From the NCBI RefSeq assembly GCF_032854445.1, contig NC_088295.1, forward strand, positions 71,390,028 through 71,454,027: a stretch of DNA of 64,000 nucleotides. The letters are read 5' to 3'. Position 1 is the first letter of the stretch; each line of letters opens with the position of its first letter. Below, in pieces: positions 14,348 to 64,000 of this stretch. The position numbers and the translations under genes are program-made. Under the pieces are notes generated by a model. The model ran no database searches. It worked only from the letters and a program-made list of their open reading frames with translations, and was not told the origin of the DNA. Source of the stretch: Liolophura sinensis (lineage: Eukaryota; Mollusca; Polyplacophora; Chitonida; Chitonidae).

Positions 14348-17300
14348 ATGGGGAAACCCAAGAAACAGAAAGCATCAGCGGTTGCTAGTCAAAGTGCGAA
14401 ACAGGACAATGTTGATGAAAAAGGTATACACTGAATGCCTTGAGTTTCAAGAAGATTATATTCTCTGATCACGTTTAGAACTGGAGCTGATTGATAGTAT
14501 AGGATTTTAAAAGTGCCTGATTTTTTTGAAAATTGGAGAACATCTCATGTATCCTAATATGTGTTATTCAAATTCTAAAATGTTTACATAACCCTCATGT
14601 ACCTTCATTTGTATGTGAGATGTTGGACATCCTGGCACTTCACTCGCACAAGGTAGCATCAAGCAGACAATGAGGTGAAAGATAACATGGGAGAGTATAG
14701 CGATATGGCTGATAATAACCAGAGATGGTAGTTTGTAAGGCAAAAAAACAATGTGCACAGCATATATAAATTGTGAAGGTTAACACGACCTGGTTTCGGA
14801 CTTATTGAGCCATGAACTAGAGTTTTAATTTTTTTTTGACAATGTTTTCAACACCGTGTGTGAGCGAGTAAGTGTGTGGTGCAAGTAAAACTGCAAATGC
14901 CCGGATGTCTGCAATCTTGAATATGATGCCAACTAACGCCATAGTTGACACATTCCTTATGCCTATGACTATGTGTTTTAAAGTCTGACTTGAAACAAGA
15001 GTCATGATAATGGGGATAAAAACCCAATAGCAAAGGCACCAATCCCAGTCAGCTTTTTCTTTCAACATGGCAAAGCTGATGTTTTGAAACAGTCGGACAT
15101 TCAGCTAAAGTATACTAACTATGCTGTTATGCCTGTTCAAAAAAATAGTTTGGAAAAATTAAACTGTATATACAGGATTGAGCTTTCTGTAGGTTTGTAT
15201 ATCTGTATATGTATATTGGTTATGAGCTTCTGAGCTTTTCACTGTTATACGTGCTGCCTGTCAGGTTAACAGGTGTGTTATGTTTGGGTGACAGAAGTAA
15301 ATAACAGTTGTTTGTCAGGTACCTAACAAACCCACCTGATTTGAGGCTGTAGCCGAAACATGCAAACTCATTGCTTAAGGCCTCAGCCAGAGTTTTAACA
15401 GTCAAATCCAACATGCTGATATATAATATATCGGTATATAATAAATCAAACCATCTTGCTACTGCTCATTTTCTTGCTATTTGTAACATGTTGTGGACAT
15501 TTAACCTGTTTCATGCATTCAGGCATAACAATTGTCGGTTTATTTAGGAAAGAAAAACTACTCATTTGCTGCGACCACAGGGGAAGAAATTGACATTGAT
15601 GGATTACAGAAGGTAATGACACAACTGGCCGATATTGGGTATTAAGTTTGTGCCTTTCAAATTTAAAATGATGAGAAAATAGTCTGTATATGTATAACAG
15701 ATTATAATCCATTGTTGTCAAAAGTCTTCTGGAAGACACTATATGTAGATGTGAAATGGTGCTAAAAATTCAATGAAGTGAAAAGTTCAGTGATCTGTGA
15801 TTCACTCTGTAAAATGTTTTTAGCTCTTAAAATCAAACATCATAACACTTTGCCTATGTGAATGTTAAAAAAATGTTTCAGCCCCCCATTTTGAATTATG
15901 AGTCAATTATTCATTATTGTTGCTTATTTATTTGTTTATTTCTTTGTATGCCAAAAAAGGTTATCCTCCCACCAGCAATTGAGAAAGATGTATTAGATTT
16001 AATACAGGAGAGTCATAAAAACCGTCCACCAGGGGAAGTGTCCAAGAGATTAACATCAAAGAAACTCACAGTAAGCTGAATTATTGTCATTATTGTATCA
16101 GTGTTCATACCTATTATTTCTACACACATTAACCAACTCTGTTCATTTTTTTGACTGCGGGAAATTCTCGCAATTGAATGGGCTAATTGTGCTACATAAC
16201 CTGGGCGAGTATGAAGTTAATGGGCACACAGGATCCTCAAAATTATACAGCAAGTCAGATCATTATTTTAACCCCATTGTTGTCCAAATATGTTACAAAT
16301 GCCACTTAAGGACCCTATTAAATCTAGTATCAGAACTAACTCTTAAGACGCTTGAAAAACTAGGTTCAGGGTTTTTATATGTTACACTATTATTATGCAG
16401 TATAATAAGCCATTTAAATCTGACATTCTCATGTAGAGATGTGTTCTGCAGTATCTTTGAAATTGCTTATATGTATGCTGCTTTTATAAGCTTATTAAAT
16501 TAAGATCACTTTACATTTTTTGATGTATAAATAGCTATAAATGTTGAACATTTATTTCAAGTTACCTGGAAAGTGTGAGACTGCACTCTGCATCACATTT
16601 CTGCTTTTTTTGTTATTGGACAACAAAATAGGCATAAGCCGTATACCCCTGTTGAACAATAAACTGCGTTGTACATGGGATTTCTGTTTTTTGGTGTTAT
16701 TGGACAACAAAATGGGCATAAACTGTATATTCCTGTTGAACAGTGAACTGCGCTGTACATGGCATTTCTGTTTCTGGTGTTATTGGACAACAAAATGGGC
16801 ATAAACCATATACCCCTGTTGAACAATGAACTGCGCTGTACATGGCATTTCTGTTTCTGGTGTTATTGGACAACAAAATGGGCATAAACCATATACCCCT
16901 GTTGAACAATGAACTGCGGTGTGGTGAGAAACTTTATTGACTACTTCACTGTTTTTGATAATGCCAATATTTGTTTCATGTTTTCATACTGTCAACATTC
17001 AACTATTTTGCGTTCCTCCATTTCAGGATGTGTATGAAAGTTTATCACAGACTGGTTTCAAGCATGATCAGATTGAGAAGGCCATGAATCACATAATACC
17101 TCTAGGGGGAGACTTGGTGGATGCCCTGGACTGGCTGTGTTTGGTTTACTCCCAATGGTGAGAGCTGGTCTACACAGAATACATTTGTCATTAGAGATGG
17201 TGTAGCCTGGGTGGGTCAGTGTGTATTTCACATCAGGCTAGAAGCTTTAGTACATGTATGATGTCACCAAACCGCTTGTTAAGCTTGCACAAACTGAGAA

Positions 17301-26300: not shown

Positions 26301-29300
26301 CATCTGCTGAGTTTGGTTAAAAGTTTAAGTGTAAAATATTGTACTTATAATGGTATGTTTTTTGTAATTGATTTCAAGGACACTTGGGGTAGTTTTGGGT
26401 GGGTAGTATATACCTGTAGTGAATCTTGTACTGTCCTGATAATAATAGTGATGAGGTAAGAACACATTCTTAACCTCACCATTATCAGAACTGTTAATGC
26501 TGAATTTCAGTGACTTACCTTTCAAAGTATACCTTGTTTTTACTTCCAGGTATAAAATTTTGGCATTGCATTCTGTGCTGTCCTCACAAGATCAAAGTGC
26601 TGCCTTTTCAGTGCTGCCACCTGGTGTTCGTAAGGTTGTTATAGCTACAAATATTGCTGAGACAGGCATTACAATTCCTGATGTAGTGTTTGTTGTGGAT
26701 GCTGGCAAAGCCAAAGAAAACAGGTGACAAATGATTATTCTTATACATGTTTATTTTATTGGCTTATCAATCTTTGGTAAATGAATTCTTTGTGAATATG
26801 GCACACCTGTATGTTCCCATTCCTGCTTGTTTACAACTCCTCAAGGACACCTCAGTATTAAAAGACCACATTTTAACATTTTACAATAATGTTGATTTGT
26901 CCTGACAGAAAAACTGATTGAGATAACATATCTTGAAATATGTTATTTTACAATATGAATTAAAATATGTTAATCATCATCTAACATTACAAACCTGACC
27001 AAATCTTTTAAATAAGTGAAATATTCATTGAAAAATTTCAGTCAAATATTATTTTAATTATTTTCTAGGCATCATGAATCTAGCAGACTGAGTGCCCTTG
27101 AAGAAGTATTCATCAGCAAAGCCAATGCGAAACAGCGTGAAGGTCGTGCAGGGCGTGTCCGTGAAGGTTACTGTTTCAGGCTCTACTCTAAACGACTGTA
27201 AGTCCATGCAGGAATTGGTGACAAACCTCAAACCATATATGTGTCAAATATTTCCTTGCGTTTGAACAAAACATCATATTTTTGATTATTTGTTTACTGT
27301 AAACTACAGACTGCGATATGGGTCACTGAGTTTGGTTCATATATGTACATATATGTTATCACCTGCATGAGATTCTCCCATCGTAGACACGAGCACCTGT
27401 TCACATGGTACATGCATGTCCACAACCGTACATGTGTATTTATCAAAGATGTTCAATCTTACGTTCTTTGAAAACCACATGTCTGCCACAAACACGATAT
27501 GCATATCTGTGCAGTATGTCAGAAAGTTCTCAGTAGGCTCTGCCAGGAACTCTGATTCCTTCCTAAAACTGACTGCTATCATGTAAGTGAAAAATTCTTA
27601 AGCGTGTCATTATGTAACAATCAAGTAAATAAAATATAAATATTTTCAGGTTTGAATCTTTTCGAGAATTTTCTATACCTGAGTTGCTACGAGTTCCTCT
27701 GGAAGAATTGTGTCTCCATATTATGGTAAGAATTACAAATATATACATGTATCTTACCTATCAGCTGAGCCATGCATTTTTCAAGGAAAAATGATTAAAA
27801 GTTAACTATTTTGTTGTTTTGAAGTATATTGAAAGTGCGGGCATGTCCTTTGTCAAAAGGATGTTAAAAGAAAATGTTCTTGATTGTTTTCAGAAATGTG
27901 ATTTGGGTGATCCTCAGAAATTCCTGTCACAAGCACTTGATCCTCCTCAGCCTATGTCAGTTTCCAAGGCAATGACCTTACTGCAGGAGGTTGGAGCCTG
28001 TATGATTGGTGACCACACTTTGACACCTCTAGGTCACCATCTTGCAGCACTTCCAGTTCATGTCAGGATTGGCAAAATGATGATATTTGGTGCCCTTTTG
28101 GGTTGCTTAGAACCTGTGGTAAGATGATTTTTTGATCAAATTCATAAGGGTGCCTCAGTGACTGAGGCGGTTAGCGCACCATCACAGTGCACTGACCCAG
28201 GAGCCTCTCACCAATGCCGTAGCTGTGAGTTCAAGTCCAGTTCCTGCTAGCCTCCTCTCCAGCCTTACTTAGAAAGGTCTGGCAGCAACTTGCAGATGGT
28301 CGTGGGTTTTCCTCCCACCATAATGCTGTCCGCCGTTGTATCAGTGAAATACTCTTGGGTACGGCATAAAACACAAATGCATGCAAATAAAAAAAATCAG
28401 ATTCATAAAAAATTGCTCTGGTTATTTCTTACACACATTTCAGTAGGGCCAGGATGGATGTGTTTGATTATAAATAGGAACAAATATAGTTTAATGCAGA
28501 AATCAAAGAACAGAACCCACTTTCAGAAAATTTTTTATGACAATATATTCTGTGCAGCATCTTGTACGAAAAAAGTTAAGAGAAATATGCATGTCTCATA
28601 AACTTGAATTCCACATAAATTAAAAGAAAGATCAATATCATATTTGCCCTGTGGATGTACAGATACTGTACATGTATATGCACCAGTAGGTGCAAATGAT
28701 GAATTGCCAGTTGTCTCCCTTCTCTAGGCTGTAATTGCTGCTGCCATGACGGGGAAGTCTCCATTTGTTGTGCCATTAAACAAACGAGATGAAGCTGACC
28801 TAGCCAAACGAGCCTTTGCCGTGTCCTGCAGTGATCACCTGACCCTTTATAACGCTTACCTCAGGTAGGAGCTAGCTACATGTAGTCAGTCCTGTAGTGA
28901 TCACCTGACCCTGTATAATGCTTACCTCAGGTAGGAGCTAGCTATGTGTAGTCAGTCCTGCAGTGATCACCTGACCCTGTATAACGCTTACCTCAGGTAG
29001 GAGCTAGCTACGTGTAGTCAGTCATGCAGTGATCACCTGACCCTGTATAATGCTTACCTCAGGTATGAGCTAGCTACGTGAAGTCAGTCCTGCAGTGATC
29101 ACCTGACCCTGTATAACGCTTACCTCGGATAGGAGCTAACTACGTGTAGTCAGTCCTGCAGTGATCACCTGACCCAGTATAACGCTTGCCTCAGGTAGGA
29201 GCTAGTTACGTGTAGTCAGTCCTGCAGTGCTCACCTGACCCTTTATAACGCTTACCTCAGGTAGGAGCTAGCTACGTGTAGTCAGTCCTGCAGTGATCAC

Positions 29301-32300
29301 CTGACCCAGTATAACGCTTACCTCAGGTAGGAGCTGGGTACAGGTGGAAAGTCCTGCAGTGATCACCTGACCCTGTATAACGCTTACCTCAGGTAGGAGC
29401 TAGCTACATGTAGTCAGTCCTGCAGTGATCACCTGACCCTGTATAACGCTTACCTCAGGTAGGAGCTAGCTACATGTAGTCAGTCCTGCAGTGATCACCT
29501 GACACTTTATAACGCTTACCTCGGGTAGGAGCTAGCTACATGTAGTCGGCCCTGCAGTGATCACCTGACCCAGTATAACGCCTACCTCAGGTAGGAGCTA
29601 GCTACATGTAGTCAGTCCTGTAGTGATTGCAGGACCCTTTATAAGCTTACCTCAGGTAGGAGCTAGCTACATGTAGTCAGTCCTGCAGTGACCACCTGAC
29701 CCAGTATAACGCTTACCTCAGGTAGGAGCTAGCTATGTGTAGTCAGTCATGTATTGATCACCTGACCCTTTATAATACTTACCTCAGGTAGGAGCTAGTT
29801 ACGTGTAGTCAGTCCTGCAGTGATCCTCTGACCCTTTATAAGGCTTACCTCAGGTATGAGCTAGCTACGTGTAGTCAGTCCTGCAGTGATCACCTGACCC
29901 TTTTTAATGCTTACCTCAGGTAGGAGCTAGCTACGTGTAGTCAGTCCTGCAGTGATCACCTGACCCTTTTTAATGCTTGCCTCAGGAAGGAGCTAGCTAC
30001 GTGTAGTCAGTCCTGCAGTGATCACGTGATCCTTTATAACGCTTACCTCAAGTAGGAGGTAGCTACATGTAGTCAGTCCTGCAGTGATCACCTGACCCAG
30101 TATAACGCTTACCTCAAGTAGGAGCTAGCTGCGTGTAGTCAGTCCTGCAGTGATTACGGGACCCTTTATAACGCTTACCTCAGGTAGGAGCTAGCTACAT
30201 GTAGTCAGTCCTGCAGTGATCACCTGACCCTTTTTAATGCTTACCTCAGGTAGGAGCTAGCTGCGTGTAGTCAGTCCTGCAGTGATCACCTGATCCTTTA
30301 TAACGCTTACCTCAGGTAGGAGCTAGCTACGTGTAGTCAGTCCTGCAGTGATCACCTGACCTGTTATAAGGCTTACCTCAGGTAGGAGCTAGCTGTGTGT
30401 AGTCAGTCCTGCAGTGATCACGTGATCCTTTATAACGCTTACCTCAGGTAGGAGCCAGCTACATGTAGCCAGTCCTGCAGTGATCACCTGACCCAGTATA
30501 ACGCTTACCTCAGGTAGGAGCTAGCTACATGTAGCCAGTCCTGCAGTGATCACCTGACCCAGTATAACGCTTACCTCAGGTAGGAGCTAGCTACATGTAG
30601 CCAGTCCTGCAGTGATCACGGGAACCTGTATAACGCTTACCTCAGGTAGGAGCTAGCTACATGTAGTCAGTCCTGCAGTGATCACCTGACCCTGTATAAC
30701 GCTTACCTCAGGTAGGAGCTAGCTAAGTGTAGAGTTTTTTTAGGAAGAGCATTAATTGGAGGATGAAGTGCACATGCGCACTCATATTGTATCAGTGGAA
30801 GTGCTTGTTAATGAAATATGATGAAGATAGTATTTTTTTTTTTTTGATGACAGTTAAATGACAAAATTTTCCAACTTGAACGGAATACATGTATTCGTAA
30901 TAACATTGTGCCGTATTGTCATAGTCTTAGTGCCTTAAGCGGATTATGGCATATTGTCATGGTCTTAGTGCCTTAAGCGGATTGTGGCACATTGTCATAG
31001 CCTTAGTGCCTTAAACAAATTGTGGCACATTGTCATAGCCGTAGTGCCTTAAATGAATTGTGGCACATTGTCATAGTCTTAGTGCCTTAAACGAATTGTG
31101 GCATATTGTCATAGTCTTAGTGCCTTAAGTGGCTAAAATGTTAGATTGTGTACATGTCATACCTCCAATGCTTGTTGCTTCCCCTGACTATTGTGTTAAA
31201 CGTCATTCATGTATGTGTCTGTCATTTGTACAGGTGGAGGAAGTCAGCAGAAGGTGGGAGACAAGCTGAGCTGGACTTTTGTAACAAGTCCTTCCTGAAG
31301 AGGAACTCACTATTAGAAATTGAGGTACTGTTCTATGTCAGTGATAAGAATGATCCTTTCTAGCATGACATGACATCATGTTCATTGTACATGTAGGTAG
31401 CAAATGATTTGTTTACCAGGCTGTTCAATGGACAGCAAGATTGTTTTAAGATATTTGGTATCTATGGGGTACTCAGAACTGAATGAAATGGGTTATTTAT
31501 GGTTACTACTTGTTGGAGGAGGGTGGCCATGTTTAACATTGTTGTGAGACTTGCTTCAGAGGTATAGCTCTTGTTAGAGTAGCTTGAAGAGTTCAAACCT
31601 CCGCCATGTTTTTGAACTGTTCTTTACGCACGTATACATGTATGTGTAGCAATATGTGAAGCTCATCATAAGGTGAACTGCCAGGAACCTGCGATTGGGT
31701 GTGGGTTTCCACCAGACTCTGCCCGATTTCCTTCCACTGTAATGCTGGTTGCCCTCATATAAATGAAATATTCTAAATAAATAAATAAATCATAATGGGT
31801 AAGCATAACATTCAGTTTTGCAAAACAGGGCATGATTCTCATTGTTTTTTTATTCCAGAATGTGAAGAAAGATTTAATAAAACTGGTGCGGTCAATTGGG
31901 TTTGATTCACCTGATAAGATGAAGTTAGGGAACAGCCTCCCTCGTGAGTTGGTTGCCATGGTGAAGGCTGTTCTAACAGCTGGCCTGTACCCAAACATTG
32001 CCATGGTCAAGTACGAGGCACCTGTGGATGCCGCAGCCAATCCTGAGCAGCGGGCTTGTGTGATGGAGACGCCCCATGGGGCAGCTCAGGCCCATCCATC
32101 CTCCATCAACAGATTCCTGAAGGCTAACGGACTTGTAGTGTATCATGAAAAGGTGAATTAGTAAACCATAATCCTGACATGGTACCAACGAAACGTTTAT
32201 GAATATGGTGAAAACGTTGATCAAATTTTAAGTGAGTAAATGTATTGCTATCAACTATCCCAGGAGAATAGGGTTGTACCGTGGCATGGATCAAAAGTTG

Positions 32301-36192: not shown

Positions 36193-36580
36193 ACTGATCT
36201 CTCTGCCCTCCAAAGGCAACCTGCCCTTCTCAATTTATCTCCTCTAAATCTGTCTACCCTCCTTAAACTCTCTACTCTTCTTACAGCATCTCTCCTCACA
36301 GTTTCTGCCCTCCTTGATCTATCTCCTGTTCTCAAACTACCTCTCCTCCTCAAACTATCTGCCCTCCTCGGACTATCTGCTCTCCTCACACTGTCTGCCC
36401 TCCTAAAACTGTGCAGGCTGTAATCAAATAAGTGAAATATTCTTGAGCAGACTAAACCAATAAAAAAAATAAGAAAATAAATAAATAAATATTCTCCTCT
36501 CTTGTTCTCCTTGCTATCTGTGATCAATCTATTTGCTCTCCTCACCCTATTTTCTTTCCCAAGCCTCATCTGCTCTCCCC
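36193..36580 (+). repeat. Degenerate 20-bp satellite with a SINE tail piece
   Basis: Diverged pyrimidine-rich units ('tctgccctcctcaaactatc' type) continue here and are interrupted at about 36415-36490 by a short SINE tail ('aagtgaaatattcttgag', then an 'aaataaataaata' end). Confidence 0.75.
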
Positions 36581-38930
36581 ACCAGTAACTGTTCTCCCCA
36601 CCACTGTCTGCTCTGCTCGCAACTATGTGTTCTGCCCACCATTATCTGTTCTCTTTCCCACTAACTGTTCTCCCCACCACTATCTGTTCTCCTCACCACC
36701 ATCCGCTCTCCTCACCACTCTGTAACTGTTGTTACTACTGTCTATTCTCCTCACCACTATTTGTTCTTCTATTCACTGTTTGCTCTCTACACCACTTTTT
36801 CCTTTCAGTACCACTATCTATTCTACCCATCACTATCTGTTCTCCTCCCCACCACCATCTGTTCTTTCCCCCTCTGCCACCATCTATTCTCCCCACCACT
36901 GTCTGTTTTCCTCAACCCTGTCTGTTTTGCTCACCACTGTCTGTTTTCTTCATCGCAGTCTGTCCTCTACACCACTGTCTCTTCTCCCCTCCAAGTCTTT
37001 CCCACCACTATCTGTTCTCCCCATCTCTATATGTTCTCCCCACCACTATCTGTTTTTCTCACCACCCCTCCATCTGCTCTCCTCAGCTCTATCTGCTTTC
37101 CCTACCACTATCTGTTCTCTCCTCACCACCAGCTTTGCTCTCCATTACTATCCTTTCTCTCCACCACTATCTGCTTTATCTCTTCTCTGCTCTCCACACT
37201 ATTTACTCTCATCACCACTTTCCATGCCACTATCTGCTTTCCATGCCACTATCTGCTTTCCCCACCACTGTCTGCTTTCCACGCTACTATCTGCTCTCCA
37301 CACCACTGTCTGCTCTCCACACCCCTATCTGCTTTCCTCACCACTATCTGCTCTCCACACCACTATCTGCTTACCCCATCACTGTCTGCTCTCCACACCA
37401 CTATCTGCTTACCCCATCACTGTCTGCTCTCCACACCACTATCTGCTTACCCCACCACTATCTGCTTACCCCACCACTATCTGTTCTCCTCCCCACCACC
37501 ATCTGTTCTTTCCCCCTCTGCCACCATCTATTCTCCCCACCACTGTCTGTTTTCCTCAACCCTGTCTGTTTTGCTCACCACTGTCTGTTTTCTTCATCGC
37601 AGTCTGTCCTCTACACCACTGTCTCTTCTCCCCTCCAAGTCTTTCCCACCACTATCTGTTCTCCCCATCTCTATATGTTCTCCCCACCACTATCTGTTTT
37701 TCTCACCACCCCTCCATCTGCTCTCCTCAGCTCTATCTGCTTTCCCTACCACTATCTGTTCTCTCCTCACCACCAGCTTTGCTCTCCATTACTATCCTTT
37801 CTCTCCACCACTATCTGCTTTATCTCTTCTCTGCTCTCCACACTATTTACTCTCATCACCACTTTCCATGCCACTATCTGCTTTCCATGCCACTATCTGC
37901 TTTCCCCACCACTGTCTGCTTTCCACGCTACTATCTGCTCTCCACACCACTGTCTGCTCTCCACACCCCTATCTGCTTTCCTCACCACTATCTGCTCTCC
38001 ACACCACTATCTGCTTACCCCATCACTGTCTGCTCTCCACACCACTATCTGCTTACCCCATCACTGTCTGCTCTCCACACCACTATCTGCTTACCCCACC
38101 ACTATCTGCTTACCCCACCACTATCTGCTCTCCACCATTACCTGTTTTCCTCACCAATATCTGCTCTCCAGACCTCTATTTACTTCCCCCACCATTATCT
38201 GCTTTCACCGCCACTATATGCTCTCCTCACCACTGCCTGTTCTCTCTGTTACTGTCCTCTCCACCACTTTCTGCTGTATCCACTACTATATGTTCTCCAC
38301 ATTACTACTTGCTCTCACCACCACTCTGTTCTCTCTACCACTACCTGTTCTCTCTACCACTACCTGTTTTCCCCACCACTGTCTGCTCTCCACACCACTA
38401 TCTGCTTTTCCTACCACGATCTGCTTTCTCCACCACTGTCTGCTCTCCACACCACTATCTGTTTACCCCACTACTATCTGCTTACCCCACCATTATCTGC
38501 TTACCCCACCATTATCAGCTCTCCAAACCACTATCTGCTTACCCCACCACTGTCTGCTCGCCACACCACTATCTACTACTACTATCTGCTTACCCCACTA
38601 CTATCTGCTCTCCACCACTACCTGTTCTTCTCACCACTATCTGCTCTCCAAACCACTATCTACTCTCCACACCACTATCTGCTTACCACACCATTATCTG
38701 CTTTCTCGCCACTATATGCTCTCCTCACCACTGTCTATTCTCTCCGTTACTGTTCTCTCCACCACTTTCTGCTGTATCCACTACTATCTGTTCTCCACAC
38801 CACTACTTGCTCTCATCACCACTCTGTTTTCTCTACCACTACCTGTTCTCCCCACCACTATCTGCTCTCCACACCACTATCTGCTTTCCCCACCACTGCC
38901 TGCTCTGTCCATTACTCTCCACATTATGAA
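36581..38930 (+). repeat. 20-bp satellite 'tctgctctccacaccactat', 2.35 kb, with a 644-bp tandem duplication
   Basis: Imperfect 20-base units rich in C and T, mostly 'ccaccactatctgttctcc' and 'cttaccccaccactatctg'. The block 36837-37480 is repeated, with no difference I could see, at 37481-38124. A looser second duplication relates about 38128-38360 to 38607-38860. Frames of more than 700 codons on the plus strand are by-products of the repeat; the same peptide text recurs in different frames because 644 is not a multiple of three. Confidence 0.95.
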
Positions 38931-46107: not shown

Positions 46108-46236
46108 ACCTACCTCACGTTGTACCAGTAGGATATCATCTTATCTTCCAACCTACCTCACGTTGTACCAGTAGGATATCATCTTATCTTCCAACCTACC
46201 TCACGTTCTACCAGTAGGATATCATCTTATCTTCCA
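46108..46236 (+). repeat. 43-bp perfect-type triplication
   Basis: Three copies of a unit starting 'acctacctcacgttgtacca' at 46108, 46151 and 46194. They are nearly identical (one g/c difference in the third), so the duplication is recent. Confidence 0.9.
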
Positions 46237-48555
46237 AACTAACCTTGAAATTGCTTGCTAAGGTAAATAGAGCTCACAAAATCCAGGAGAATGAGCAACT
46301 TAGTCATGAATGAAAGTTTAGGTCATTCACAGTATAGGTATATGATGGAAAGTGCTTAGGGCTACTGTTTTGTGAAACCACTTTTCAATCAATGACGCGA
46401 TGAACAGACAACATGGCAATAATTGCACCACCTTTTATTCCTGGAAAATCTTGCTGGATTAAACTGCCAGTGAAGATCTATATCCATTGCACAACCCACA
46501 AAACTGGCACACAATATCGCGTAGTCATTCTATTTTATTCAGGGATATTGCACCATAAATAATAAGCATTAAAGTATGAACAATTCACTGTTCCAAGGGT
46601 GGTTATTTGGAATTTCTTTTTTGATAAAAAAAATCAAATGTTTAAATGTATTTTGATCTAGATATATAAGCGAAATATGTCCAATCTGGGAAAAACTCTT
46701 CCCAGGCCAAAGCTTATAATTAAGCTAATGAGAAACAAAGGGTCATACGAGTGAAGACTCTTTACACGGTTACTACCAGTAGAAAGAAAGTCTAAATAGT
46801 CAGTCTATTGGCACAACTAATGTACAAAATTTATCACAGCGCTAGTATCATCTTCTCTATACAGAAACATTTATAATTTCTGCAAATTCTCATCGAGATG
46901 GGAGTGGGTGGATGCTAAATCCACAAAGTGGAATTTGATACTTCCCATCAAACTAGATATACATGTAGCTGTAGATAAAGGATGTTCTTTTTAACTGTTT
47001 TATCTTTCATCTACCAATCAAAGTCACAATAAATAAATGTTTCTGTGGGATATATGCAGAAATCCCACACTTCTTTCTGACAGCAGCTACCAATTAATTC
47101 TTAATTCAAACTTCTGTAGCATCATAATGTCCACCCTAAGAAATCATACATATAGATGTTTGAAACCTTAAACTGCAACTGAATGTGATGTGGGTTTGTT
47201 TCTGGCAGATAACAAAATTCATTGCGTCCTAGAATTAAACACACAGTCTTTAGCCGTACAGAGACACATGTACAGAGGGACGGACAAACAGCCAACAAAT
47301 TGGCTACTGATTGTTGACATTCATTGGTGGGTGAATTTCAGTTTGTGGTCCACATTTACACTGGTGCATTAAAAATAATATAATTCATTGATTTTATGGT
47401 GGGAATTTGGGAATGATGAACCATATTGTTCTTGTTATTAGTATGTAGTAAGTTTGTTTGAATGGTGAACAAACATGTACGTATGTGATTTTGTTCTCTC
47501 AAGGAAATATTTTTGAAGACCTCCTACTGAAAAGAATTATCTCAAGATAAGCATGAAAGCTTCAATATCTCCAAGATAACATACAAATGGTATGGGTACA
47601 TAAATGCATATATATATTTACACAAGGTCACAAGTTTCAAATTGTCTTAATTGAAAATTCCTTATTGGATAAGGTTTCGGTACAGTACAAATCACTGGAC
47701 CATATCAAGATATACAAATTATCTAATAACTTCTCCTGCAAAATGGAGTGATGCACTGAATGGCTATTTCTCTTTGTATGTGATGACATTGTCTAAAATG
47801 GCCAAGGCTGAAAGTCAAATGCTTTTGACCGACATCATCACCCTCTTTTGGTAACCTAAATTATAGGCAACCACAAATTTTGCAATGATCCATATCTTGC
47901 AAATGACATTAAGATATTTAGTTCACATATGATATATAAAATATATCCCAAGTGACAGAATAATTTTCTCCACACACATGTACATATGTGTAAAACTGTA
48001 CCATCACAACAATGTGCCAAAAGAATCAAGAAAACAAGGTAAACACAATATGGCTGTTTTTTTATCTGATGCATTCTCTGTTTTGGTATGCAATATTTGT
48101 TTAAAAATATATAATTATGTATTAGATGGTGTTAAATGTGGATAATAACTCTACAGTAATCACCTCGTCAACTAACCTGACAGTAGAAGGAGGTTAGGCA
48201 AATTGTCAATATGTAAAGGAATCATGACTGAGAACTAGCCATCAGTTTTCATGAGAAGTCATGGTAAACCCTTAACAGTCAATGTACTTTATAGTGACAT
48301 GAAAATGCTGAGACATTAAGTGCCTTAAAATTTGAAAAAAAATTTTGATTTTAAAAAACATCAATAAAGAAACAATAACAATCTAATGAGTAAAATGGAA
48401 GGTTTCAAGAAATGGGTCTTAACCAGTAACTAGTTCTATGGTGATTAACCATGAGAAACCCTGTGACTATGAGATGGAGATTAAATGGTTGAATGACCAA
48501 TGTCTACCTCTGTTGGACTGTGACAGAGGTAGTTTTTTTTTTATGCACACCCAGG

Positions 48556-51500: not shown

Positions 51501-54500
51501 ATATTCACATCTCTTTTCAGCACATATAGTTCTGATACACACTGTGCGCTTGAAACTGAAAAATGTTCATTTCTGTTGATAGGCAGGTGGGAATGAATGT
51601 ATGTATGCTGGGGGGTTACATTATTCTTGACAATTTTTTCAGTTGTATTACGACATTTATCACGTGGAGTAGACCACAATACCAATTCTGACATGAGATG
51701 AGAGATAATAAATCATCCAACAGTTTCTGTTCTATTCAAAAAAACAGTTTTGATAAAACCCAAATACTGGTTTACATGTATAATGTACATCTTATCATTT
51801 GAGTTCACACAGTACGTTTGCTACAGTTTGTATCTGAAGGGTATCTTCAAGTAATTTTTTCAGCACAAATGCTTTTAATCTAGAAATAAGAATCTGTACC
51901 AGTAATCTACTGTTTCTTTTTGCTTTTGCTAGGCATGATGTGTACATTATATGTCTGAAGTAATGTTCAGCCAATCCAGCTATTTTGAGTACAAGTAACA
52001 ATATGAGCGTAAAAGGTTTTTGTTGCTATTATCAGGTGCCAATTACGGTACATGAGCGTTATGTAACTCCAGAATCGAGTAAACATGAAAACCCTTCAAG
52101 TCCGTGTCATATCCCTGAGGCCTTCTCTCCACCATCAATCACTTTACACCAGGCTTCAACACAAGCTGTCTACATTTATGTTCCAAGAACATGATAGTAC
52201 TGACTCAAGCTGACATTGGATGGGCTGACAGTAGAGGAAGTCCCAGGTGGTCTGCGTGAGCTAATATAGACAAAGTCCTTAACTCTAGGGACAAATAACA
52301 CCTGTAGTCAGCCTTAACTTAATTAGAAATAAATTCACCTTCTGTAAACGGTCTGGCCAGTATATCAGGTTGTACACCTCTAGCTACCCCCCACACACTT
52401 ACGGTGTATGTAGAGCAATTGACATGGCCGGATGAGGCCATTTATTTATCAACCCTGTTTAGATCCTGAACGTGAGTAAGCACTGTGATTTGATTACCTC
52501 AATTATCATGCAGAACTGATCACCCATCTGACCAGGCAGATTTGACAGCTCTTTTATCACACACATTCAATCACCTAGCTACCTTTATAACATAGAGATT
52601 TGATTGCTTTTGTATGATGCAGATTTTATCACCTATCAGAGCAGGCAAATTTGACCACCTTTTTTAACATGTATATTTGGTCACCTATTATTAAAACTTG
52701 AGCAGACAATTTTATTGATGTATGTGAGCAGATGGCCATGACCTCAAATTCAAGCAGGTATATTTCAGCACCAATGAAAAAATTTGTCTGCGTGCGTGAA
52801 TTTGATCAACTAGGCAAAGCTGGTCACCCACTTGAGCCAGCAGTTTGATCACCTACCTGATCAGACAATTTGACCACCGACTCAAGAAGTTAGATGTGAT
52901 CACCTTCCCGAGTAGGCGGTTTTGATCACCTTCCCGAAAAAGTCAGATTTTGCACCTACATGTAGCTGAATAATCAGTTTAATCACCTACCTACACAGGT
53001 TGTTCGATCAACTACCTGAACAGACAGGTTTGATCATCTACCTAAGCAGGCAGTTTGACCACCTACCTGAGCCAGTAGTTTGAACACCTACCTGAGTAGA
53101 CAGATTTGATAATCTACCTGAGCAGATAGTTTGATCAGCTGCCTAAGCAGGCAGTTTGGTCAGCTACCTAAGCAAACAGTTTGATCAGCTATCTGAGCAA
53201 GCTGTTTCATCACCCACCTGGGCAGACAGTTTGATCACCTACCTGAGTCGGAAGATTGGTCATCTACCTGAGCCAGTAGTCTGATCGCCTACCTGACTCA
53301 TTAGTCTAACCATCTACCTGAGCCAGTAGTCTGATCACCTACCTGACTCATCAGTCTAACCATCTACCTGAGCCAGTAGTCTGATCACCTACCTGACTCA
53401 TTAGTCTAACCATCTACCTGAGCCCATAGTTTGATCACCTACCTAAGTAGGCAGTTTGAACAGGAGCCTGATCCATTATTTCACCCACATACCTGAGCCT
53501 GTAGTTTGATCACCTACCTATAAAGGTGACAGTTTCATCACCTACTAGAGCAGCGATTTAATAACCTACCTGAATAGGCAGATTTGATCACCTACCTGAG
53601 CTAACTGACCTGATCTACCCACCTTGGCTGGCTGGCTGGCTGGCTGGCAAATTTGACAACTTTCCTGATCCAATATGGAGACAACATGTTGATCACAGTA
53701 GTTTAAATGTGTCATTTAACAATGTCACACAGAATGAACTCAACTAAACAGTTGTAGGACTTACCAGATGGTGTACAGGGCAACGATGACAAACACGATG
53801 AATAAGGTCCCAGCTGCCAGCACTGCGTACATCCAGAAGTTTGTGGGTCCATCCACTGTCACAAAGCAGATCACAGAGTCTCTCAATGAACAATTATATC
53901 AAACAATATCCTTACCCCCAAGTCTCTCATTTGCTAACTGAAAGATCAAGTTTAAATTTCATACTACATAAGATGATCCATGTCAACACGCATGTATGCA
54001 AATTAATTAATATCTAATACAAAATTAATGTTATAATTTCAGTTTTGCATATTAAATTATTAGACATAAGCTTTGCACAGAATCCATGTTCCCCCATGAA
54101 ATTTTGATATCTCCAGCTCTTCTGATGTAACTATACAGCTTCCAGTCCACCTAGATGTACACGGGCATACATTAGCCATGTTCACAGCGGGCAGAGATCA
54201 TCAATAATCAGGATGTACATTCACTAAACTTTGTAAATCAATGAATCAAATGAACCACACAAACCATATCACCATATGGTAGTATCATGGAAGAAAGAAG
54301 TTACAATGTATGTATAAATGGATTTTATCTAGTTTTGCACAGGAGATAGCCCTGCTAAGTGTCAATTTATACAGCCCTGGGACATGTTAAACACATTAGC
54401 AGCTAGTGCCAAAGATATTGTCTTAGTTATTTATACACATAAGCATCATTACACATAATGATAATGGAGTCAAATTATCACCATGTAAATAATTGAAAGC

Positions 54501-62129: not shown

Positions 62130-62722
62130 CTTATCTCCTGTACCAGGAAAACTGCCACTCTGAGGTCAGTTCTGTCAACCATACTGATCTGAGCATATCC
62201 ATATACTTCAACCAGAGACTGACCTTATAAAAAATTGTACTAACAGGGAGCTGTCTTCCAGCCTAAAAAATGGTACCTAACCAGCTCCACTCATCAAGTT
62301 CATCTAACCAGTGTACCTCTGCTCTACAATCCCGTAGCTAGAATAAACCCACACATCTGATATCATGGAATTCATCCAACCTCTCTACTTAGAAACCACT
62401 CGTGTTCATCCATGGTGCAGAGTGCAGTCATATGTGATCTCACTGGATAGATTTCATCCATACCTGATTTCTCTGGGTATCCATTCTATCAGACCTCACT
62501 GAACAAAAGTGCAGACATATTTGACCTCACTGTATATTCATCCATACATAACCTCACTGTGCAGAATGCAGCCTTATGTGAGCTCACTGGATAGATTTTA
62601 TCCATAACAGATCTCAGTAGGTAGAGTTCATATCTGACCTCACTGAACATTCAACCATAACTGATTTCTCTGGGTATTCATCCCATCAAACCTCAATGAA
62701 CAGAGTGCGGATACATTTGACC
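62130..62722 (-). repeat. Decayed edge of the 57-bp satellite
   Basis: Recognisable but scrambled pieces of the neighbouring unit ('acctcactgaacaaaagtgc', 'agacatatttgacctcactg', 'attcatccatacataacctc') with variable spacing, fading leftwards. Confidence 0.75.
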
Positions 62723-64000
62723 TCACTGCATGTCATACATACCTAACCTCATTGAACAGAGTGCAGACATATCTAACCACACTGCAATTTCATTCATGCC
62801 ATCAAACCTCAATGAGCGAAGTGCAGACATATCTAACCGCACTGCATACTCACCCATACCTAACCTCACTGAGCGAAGTGCAGATATATCTAACCACACT
62901 GCAATTTCATTCATGCCTAACCTCACTGAGCAAAGTGCAGACATATCTAACCACAATGCATGTTCATTCATGCCTAACCTCACTGAGCAAAGTGCAGACA
63001 TATTTAACCGCACTGCATACTCACCCATACCTAACCTCATTGAGCAAAGTGCAGACATATTTAACCGCACTGCATACTCACCCATACCTAACCTCATTGA
63101 GCAGAGTGCAGACATATCTAACCGCACTGCATGTTCATTCATGCCTAACCTCACTGAGCGAAGTGCAGACATATTTAACCGCACTGCATACTCACCCATA
63201 CCTAACCTCATTGAGCAGAGTGCAGACATATCTAACCGCACTGCATGTTCATTCATGCCTAACCTCACTGAGCAAAGTGCAGACATATTTAACCGCACTG
63301 CATACTCACCCATACCTAACCTCATTGAGCAAAGTGCAGACATATTTAACCGCACTGCATACTCACCCATACCTAACCTCATTGAGCAGAGTGCAGACAT
63401 ATCTAACCGCACTGCATGTTCATTCATGCCTAACCTCACTGAGCGAAGTGCAGACATATTTAACCGCACTGCATACTCACCCATACCTAACCTCATTGAG
63501 CAGAGTGCAGACATATCTAACCGCACTGCATGTTCATTCATGCCTAACCTCACTGAGCGAAGTGCAGACATATTTAACCGCACTGCATACTCACCCATAC
63601 CTAACCTCATTGAGCAGAGTGCAGACATATCTAACCGCACTGCATGTTCATTCATGCCTAACCTCACTGAGCGAAGTGCAGACATATTTAACCGCACTGC
63701 ATACTCACCCATACCTAACCTCATTGAGCAGAGTGCAGACATATCTAACCGCACTGCATGTTCATTCATGCCTAACCTCACTGAGCAAAGTGCAGACATA
63801 TTTAACCGCACTGCATACTCACCCATACCTAACCTCATTGAGCAAAGTGCAGACATATTTAACCGCACTGCATACTCACCCATACCTAACCTCATTGAGC
63901 AGAGTGCAGACATATCTAACCGCACTGCATGTTCATTCATGCCTAACCTCACTGAGCGAAGTGCAGACATATTTAACCGCACTGCATACTCACCCATACC
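62723..64000 (-). repeat. 57-bp satellite, at least 22 copies, running off the right edge
   Basis: Two unit types of exactly 57 bases alternate irregularly. On the minus strand they read MGEYAVRLNMSALRSVRLG (type A) and MNEHAVRLDMSALCSMRLG (type B). Because 57 is a multiple of three and the unit has no stop in this frame, a 424-codon frame stays open through the window edge. The decayed left flank and the lack of any splice or start logic favour a non-coding satellite in a THSD7-like intron or upstream of it. Coding use cannot be fully excluded because the array is cut by the window. Confidence 0.9.

Follow-up and report, generated by a model that had tools for sequence, protein, structure and literature searches.

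The window analysed here, a stretch of 64,000 nt of the chiton Liolophura sinensis (NCBI RefSeq assembly GCF_032854445.1, contig NC_088295.1, positions 71,390,028 to 71,454,027 of the forward strand), carries the gene for the helicase DHX29. Positions refer to the window unless a contig is named. A UBA_DHX29 domain match lies within the frame 16928-17161 (Pfam, E 1.1e-18), and a coding exon of the gene farther downstream ends inside a minisatellite that continues into the following intron. The array and its surroundings comprise the following features.

28728..28864, plus strand: DHX29 coding exon of 137 nt, placed by human DHX29 homology, with AG before 28728 and GT at 28865; its 3' end (AYL-AG, phase 2) is the apparent seed of the array.
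28823..30732, plus strand: minisatellite of 29 units of 66 bp, from Tandem Repeats Finder (TRF) and the copies set in register.
28823..28888, plus strand: copy 1, which holds the real exon end and the donor (28865) and has no private variants against the array, from copy comparison.
28866..28868, plus strand: in-frame TAG, met at once if the copy-1 donor is skipped, read from the sequence.
28889..30732, plus strand: copies 2-29, in which pseudo-exon ends carry decoy donors, 21 of the 28 being exactly CAGGTAGGA, from copy comparison.
28865..31233, plus strand: intron of 2369 nt, which includes the last 24 nt of copy 1, all of copies 2-29 and a second array of unrelated 38-bp units, from sequence and homology.
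30915..31128, plus strand: 38-bp minisatellite of 5.6 copies in the same intron, without a donor word, from TRF.
31234..31340, plus strand: start of the next DHX29 exon (WRKSAEGGRQAELDFCNKSFLKRNSLLEIE; end approximate), placed by human DHX29 homology.

The array repeats an exon end together with its 5' splice site about 29 times into the DHX29 intron, as a sequence-only reading of the window had proposed. TRF reports a period of 66, 29.0 copies, 90% matches and a score of 3055, far above chance, and each unit joins 42 nt of the DHX29 exon end to 24 nt of the intron start. Full 66-mers are in register in 27 of the 29 copies, while copy 13 has 65 nt and copy 29 falls three bases short at the array end. 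A DNA search, of a type that weak matches can escape, found the array at a single place in the assembly. The exon boundary at 28864, also claimed by the sequence-only reading, agrees with protein homology. Translated together, exon 28728-28864 and the sequence beginning at 31234 align with human DHX29 (PDB chain 22tu_DH; E 1.4e-22) along all 76 of 76 query residues. The match crosses the junction 28864|31234 (YNAYLR|WRKS against YNAYLGWKKA) and is interrupted once, shortly past it, by a gap of one residue; this continuity supports the boundary at 28864 by homology. The human homology is joined once, with the array inside that one intron and no sign of a second intron.

Splice-site words persist through most of the array. 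The donor CAGGTAGGA (CAG|GTAGGA) is exact in 22 of the 29 copies and its GT is retained in 27, which matches the earlier impression that most donors are intact. The CTGCAG that had been noticed in the copies is retained in 25 of 29, with an AG at that place in 28. TAG lies directly 3' of the donor in 26 of 29 copies. Past the first donor the frame continues AGG TAG, and a transcript spliced at any later one meets a stop at once; the expectation that later donors would include an in-frame TAG is thus borne out.

Repeats of this kind are known from lancelets as mirages, tandem repeats that span exon-intron boundaries and were described in globin genes, apparently without disturbing splicing (PMC3087553). 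The same source cites Adh3 as an earlier case, and further lancelet mirages are described in PGBD5 and troponin C (PMC3902484). Units range from 10 to 160 bp, and both papers report that splicing is not disturbed (PMC3087553, PMC3902484). The chiton repeat resembles the lancelet mirages of Adh3, BflGb6, BflGb9, PGBD5 and troponin C, as its unit runs across a real exon-intron boundary (placed by homology) and repeats AG/GT, which is kept in many but not all copies. Unlike those cases, the host is a mollusc and not a cephalochordate, and the 29 copies compare with 6 and 3 in the BflGb6 haplotypes (PMC3087553). The verified chiton cases are all donor-side and known from the sequence of a single haplotype, whereas BflGb6 repeats the acceptor side. 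The boundary copies of BflGb6 are reported to lie outside homogenisation; in the chiton array, copy 1 sits near the centre of its family and has no private variant, and copy 29 has one.

We suggest that the DHX29 array is a mirage minisatellite, a neutral by-product of a minisatellite-rich genome that is tolerated while the first donor is used, and we regard this explanation as probable. A tandem duplication would have extended from 42 nt before the DHX29 exon end to about 24 nt into the intron, and unequal exchange, conversion or slippage would have amplified it to 29 copies. As the extra copies are entirely intronic, they would evolve as ordinary neutral minisatellite DNA. The good appearance of the later donors would reflect youth or homogenisation of the copies, not selection. 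DHX29 protein would come from the 5'-most donor (28865) joined to the acceptor before 31234, with the later copies spliced out. Both the homology and the stop codon behind the donor suggest that 28865 gives the usual product. Most likely the array does no harm and is tolerated because, of the many splice sites, the first is the one used.

The same architecture occurs at other genes. The assembly searched holds 609,464,459 bases in 632 contigs, and we inspected the sequence 5' of 20 donor-bearing arrays on one of them, C1 (96,433,062 bases). Five came from the listed matches to CAGGTRAG and 15 from the 17 arrays into which we grouped the listed matches to AGGTAGG, without C1:25896828 (which nearly duplicates the mannosidase array below) and C1:28065095 (short unit). 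The 20 arrays were taken from the first matches listed and are therefore no random sample. Among these matches, a coding exon end was recognised at 3 of the 20 arrays, all on the same chromosome, in the genes for alpha-L-fucosidase and lysosomal alpha-mannosidase and in a third gene. No exon was recognised beside the other 17 of 20, with Pfam used for 10 of the 20 loci and the remaining 10 judged by eye. The regions upstream of the first donors held 29 open frames, of which 10, from the 10 Pfam loci, were searched, one of them by 124 of its 288 residues. Since half of the loci were judged by eye, the 17 arrays without a recognised exon may still have one.

In alpha-L-fucosidase (Pfam E 4.2e-9; array C1:5299194-5299579), protein homology runs across the junction with E 7.9e-30. 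The real donor lies about 70 nt upstream of the array, in a first unit set apart by a non-repeat stretch, and the searched stretch contains 16 AG|GTA words with the real donor counted. The non-repeat stretch after the first unit ends in CACTCACTCACTCA, which may be a mobile-element tail. An array much like the fucosidase mirage lies 25 kb away (C1:5323467-5324867), next to another long in-frame repeat and without a recognised exon; it may represent a gene duplicate or a mirage that became detached. The lysosomal alpha-mannosidase array (C1:25881784-25882030) has 8.0 copies of 31 bp and nine AG|GTA words, with junction homology at E 4.6e-20. Its near copy about 15 kb off (C1:25896828-25897020) is perhaps a tandem gene duplicate. 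The array in the third gene (C1:1061709-1062386) has 11.7 copies of 58 bp and 12 donor words, and the case rests on open exons on both sides. Two more exon ends of this gene seem repeated, in a 62-bp array at about C1:1063220-1063740 (extent judged by eye) and in 1.9 copies of 57 bp at C1:1060813-1060922. Three exon ends of the gene (C1:1060151-1064551) have apparently been turned into 57-, 58- and 62-bp repeats within about 3 kb. Pfam and PDB searches gave it no name. The one PDB match listed, a lumazine protein (E 0.029), was dismissed, as none of its individual stretches fell under the limit.

An array of competing donors could also have a function. If later donors were used at some rate, the TAG at 28866 would send the transcripts to nonsense-mediated decay (NMD), and array length would set the DHX29 level. 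In line with such tuning, 21 of the 28 later donors match the real donor exactly and the stop in copy 1 renders every later choice unproductive; the first codon past the real fucosidase donor is also a stop (G TAA), and in the mannosidase the sixth codon is TGA. However, in phase 2 a donor that reads GTAG or GTAA always brings a stop with it, and recurrence in unrelated genes is what a mutational by-product predicts. Divergence among the copies provides a further argument. Against the consensus, copies 2-29 show 69 differences in 1176 positions (5.9%) of the exon-derived part and 42 in 672 (6.3%) of the intron-derived part, three of the 42 being bases past the array end in copy 29. The donor 9-mer, with 8 of 252 (3.2%), is low without being extreme, ranking 16th lowest among 66 circular 9-bp windows with ties present. 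With copies 1 and 13 set aside, the exon-derived parts of the other 27 carry 24 unique variants, 9 synonymous and 15 not, whereas about 31% would be synonymous under random change. The similar divergence of exon and intron parts, the rank of the donor and the share of synonymous variants give no sign of copies being kept as exons or donors. The sequence-only reading had left open whether the array tunes DHX29 or is merely tolerated. Tolerance fits best, and tuning loses ground with a donor that lacks excess conservation and a copy 1 that is not structurally distinct; we consider tuning by decoy donors clearly unlikely.

Cassette inclusion represents a different possible use of the copies. CTGCAG acceptors and donors would together allow copies to enter the mRNA, adding repeats of 11 residues to DHX29. 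The sequence-only reading had counted a frame-shifting microexon of 38 nt. This was a miscount, as the cassette from CTGCAG to the donor has 33 nt in 28 of 29 copies (32 nt in copy 13) and keeps the frame. Read in the phase of the intron, the 33-nt cassettes encode SDHLTLYNAYL or a near variant and are stop-free in 28 of 28, which together with the retained CTGCAG and AG words speaks for inclusion. At about 6% divergence, though, absent stops are weak evidence, and the tract upstream of CTGCAG is short and interrupted by other AGs. A stretch of 33 nt is too short for an intron, and the distance from a donor to the next CTGCAG is only 33 nt, so that cassette inclusion would require skipped copies. 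The repeat would furthermore be inserted into the helicase between its HA2 and OB-fold regions, as placed by Pfam. Inclusion of such cassettes appears very unlikely.

RNA structure might hide the later donors if near self-complementary sequence paired the copies with each other and left copy 1 free. The donor lies within the near-palindrome TACCTCAGGTA (28855-28870 and later copies), and the opposite strand of the consensus unit therefore reads a donor-like GAG|GTAAGC. In predicted structures, the donor 9-mers of copies 2-29 have a median open probability about 80 to 120 times below that of the median array 9-mer, and two units are predicted to pair in a duplex of -19.8 kcal/mol. The copy-1 donor is not predicted to be more open than the others, however, ranking 23rd, 13th and 13th of 29 at three window sizes. 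Copy 1 is predicted to be no less closed than the other copies, so a choice of its donor through structure is unsupported and the explanation highly improbable. Tandem arrays are also prone to mis-assembly, and the repeat could in principle be an artefact. Yet the copies differ from each other (mean pairwise difference 5.84), the HiFi reads with a mean of 8,347 bp exceed the 1.9-kb array (PMC11068029), and the same architecture appears at other exon ends. An assembly artefact has a next to negligible chance of being correct.

The abundance of minisatellites bears on how often mirages should arise. Minisatellites (period of at least 10, at least 2.5 copies) occurred in 17 of 20 arbitrarily placed 10-kb pieces, with 50 arrays covering 10.4% of bases. 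Extrapolation from these 20 pieces gives about 152,000 arrays genome-wide. On our assumption of 150,000-250,000 introns in the genome, random placement would put about 1,300-2,100 of these arrays across donors. Recurrence at other chiton exon ends is found in numbers that random placement of abundant minisatellites could allow. The donor word [ACG]AGGT[AG][AG]G occurs in the consensus unit of 0 of the 50 sampled arrays against 3 of the 13 arrays in the window, an excess without meaning because the window was picked for its finding. The share of about 10% minisatellite in sampled chiton DNA contrasts with the repeat table of the genome paper, which lists 0.08% for simple repeats, microsatellites and RNA combined (PMC11068029).

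Several observations weigh against a mirage that arose by chance placement and simple amplification. CAGGTRAG triplets number 3351 genome-wide against 672 for the reversed word, where another permutation has 1089 and its reverse 773. Single CAGGTRAG words are only 2.5 times commoner than the reverse (59,903 against 23,644). Acceptor-like triplets of TTTTNCAGG number 370 against 120 for the reversed word. These triplet figures count overlapping matches, are dominated by long arrays and carry no p-value. The excess of splice words in arrays perhaps points to something beyond random placement. Within the DHX29 array, neighbouring copies show 5.75 differences on average and shuffled ones 5.84, and 37.7% of 5000 shuffles gave a mean equal to or below the observed one. 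Neighbours are not especially alike, so that simple stepwise slippage is a poor description of the array history. AGGTAGG, which three window arrays seemed to share, was ruled out as a general array seed, as its triplets show no excess over the reverse (1802 against 2263). The triplet counts leave room for a splice-site preference without proving one. If splice sites were preferred minisatellite seeds in the chiton, thousands of genes would carry competing-donor arrays, with copy numbers varying among individuals and slight expression tuning through failed splicing and NMD. We consider this proposal rather unlikely.

Other repeats in the window and assembly deserve mention. On the minus strand, the arrays 52975-53601 and 46108-46241 have units with a donor-like AG|GTAGGT, and no exon is demonstrable beside either; for 46108-46241, an exon end of a transporter was ruled out by a stop in the first copy. 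The minus-strand array 62689-64000 also has donor-like words, with no exon demonstrated. A pyrimidine-rich array at 36529-38906 (TRF period 38, 63.3 copies) shows open frames of more than 700 aa in all three plus-strand frames, which are probably spurious. The contig C99 (108,685 bases) holds seven cox1 copies about 15.5 kb apart and represents a run of mitochondrial genomes, probably an assembly artefact. Its gene order is cox3-nad3-nad2-cox1-cox2-atp6 on one strand and nad5-nad4-nad4L-cob-nad6-nad1 on the other (cox1 by Pfam, the others by eye), which we take to be the ancestral mollusc order. A lancelet as the source of the DNA, first considered in view of the mirage literature, does not agree with this order.

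In genes of human segmental duplications, internal tandem repeats at exon-intron boundaries supply additional splice sites, as in the chiton. The human repeats are retained in or spliced from transcripts and create new introns, whereas the chiton copies sit in an existing intron (PMC2812944). Intron gain by tandem duplication (the Rogers model as mentioned in PMC3087553; potato RdRp, PMC4974935) likewise involves a duplication that carries splice signals; unlike there, chiton DHX29 gives no sign of a second intron. A literature search on mirages, boundary minisatellites, chitons and intron gain, made at title and abstract level with subscription papers mostly outside it, found no mollusc mirage. 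The available text of a study of Conus introns speaks of microsatellites only (PMC3862624). For an earthworm metallothionein, minisatellites in an intron and unexplained exon duplications are described, and repeats spanning splice sites are not stated in the available portion (PMC12783039). The DHX29 array is a repeat of a known kind, which here occurs in a new phylum and at several genes of one mollusc.

Mirages have been described as a lancelet phenomenon (PMC3087553, PMC3902484, in the portions available), and several mollusc genes suggest that they occur wherever a genome is rich in minisatellites. The arrays provide natural experiments on how the spliceosome chooses among many identical donors. 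In DHX29, the first of 29 donors must be picked, with exon length, transcription order and context as almost the sole remaining cues. Since the DHX29 cassettes keep the frame, mirages could also supply material from which new introns and cassette exons arise.

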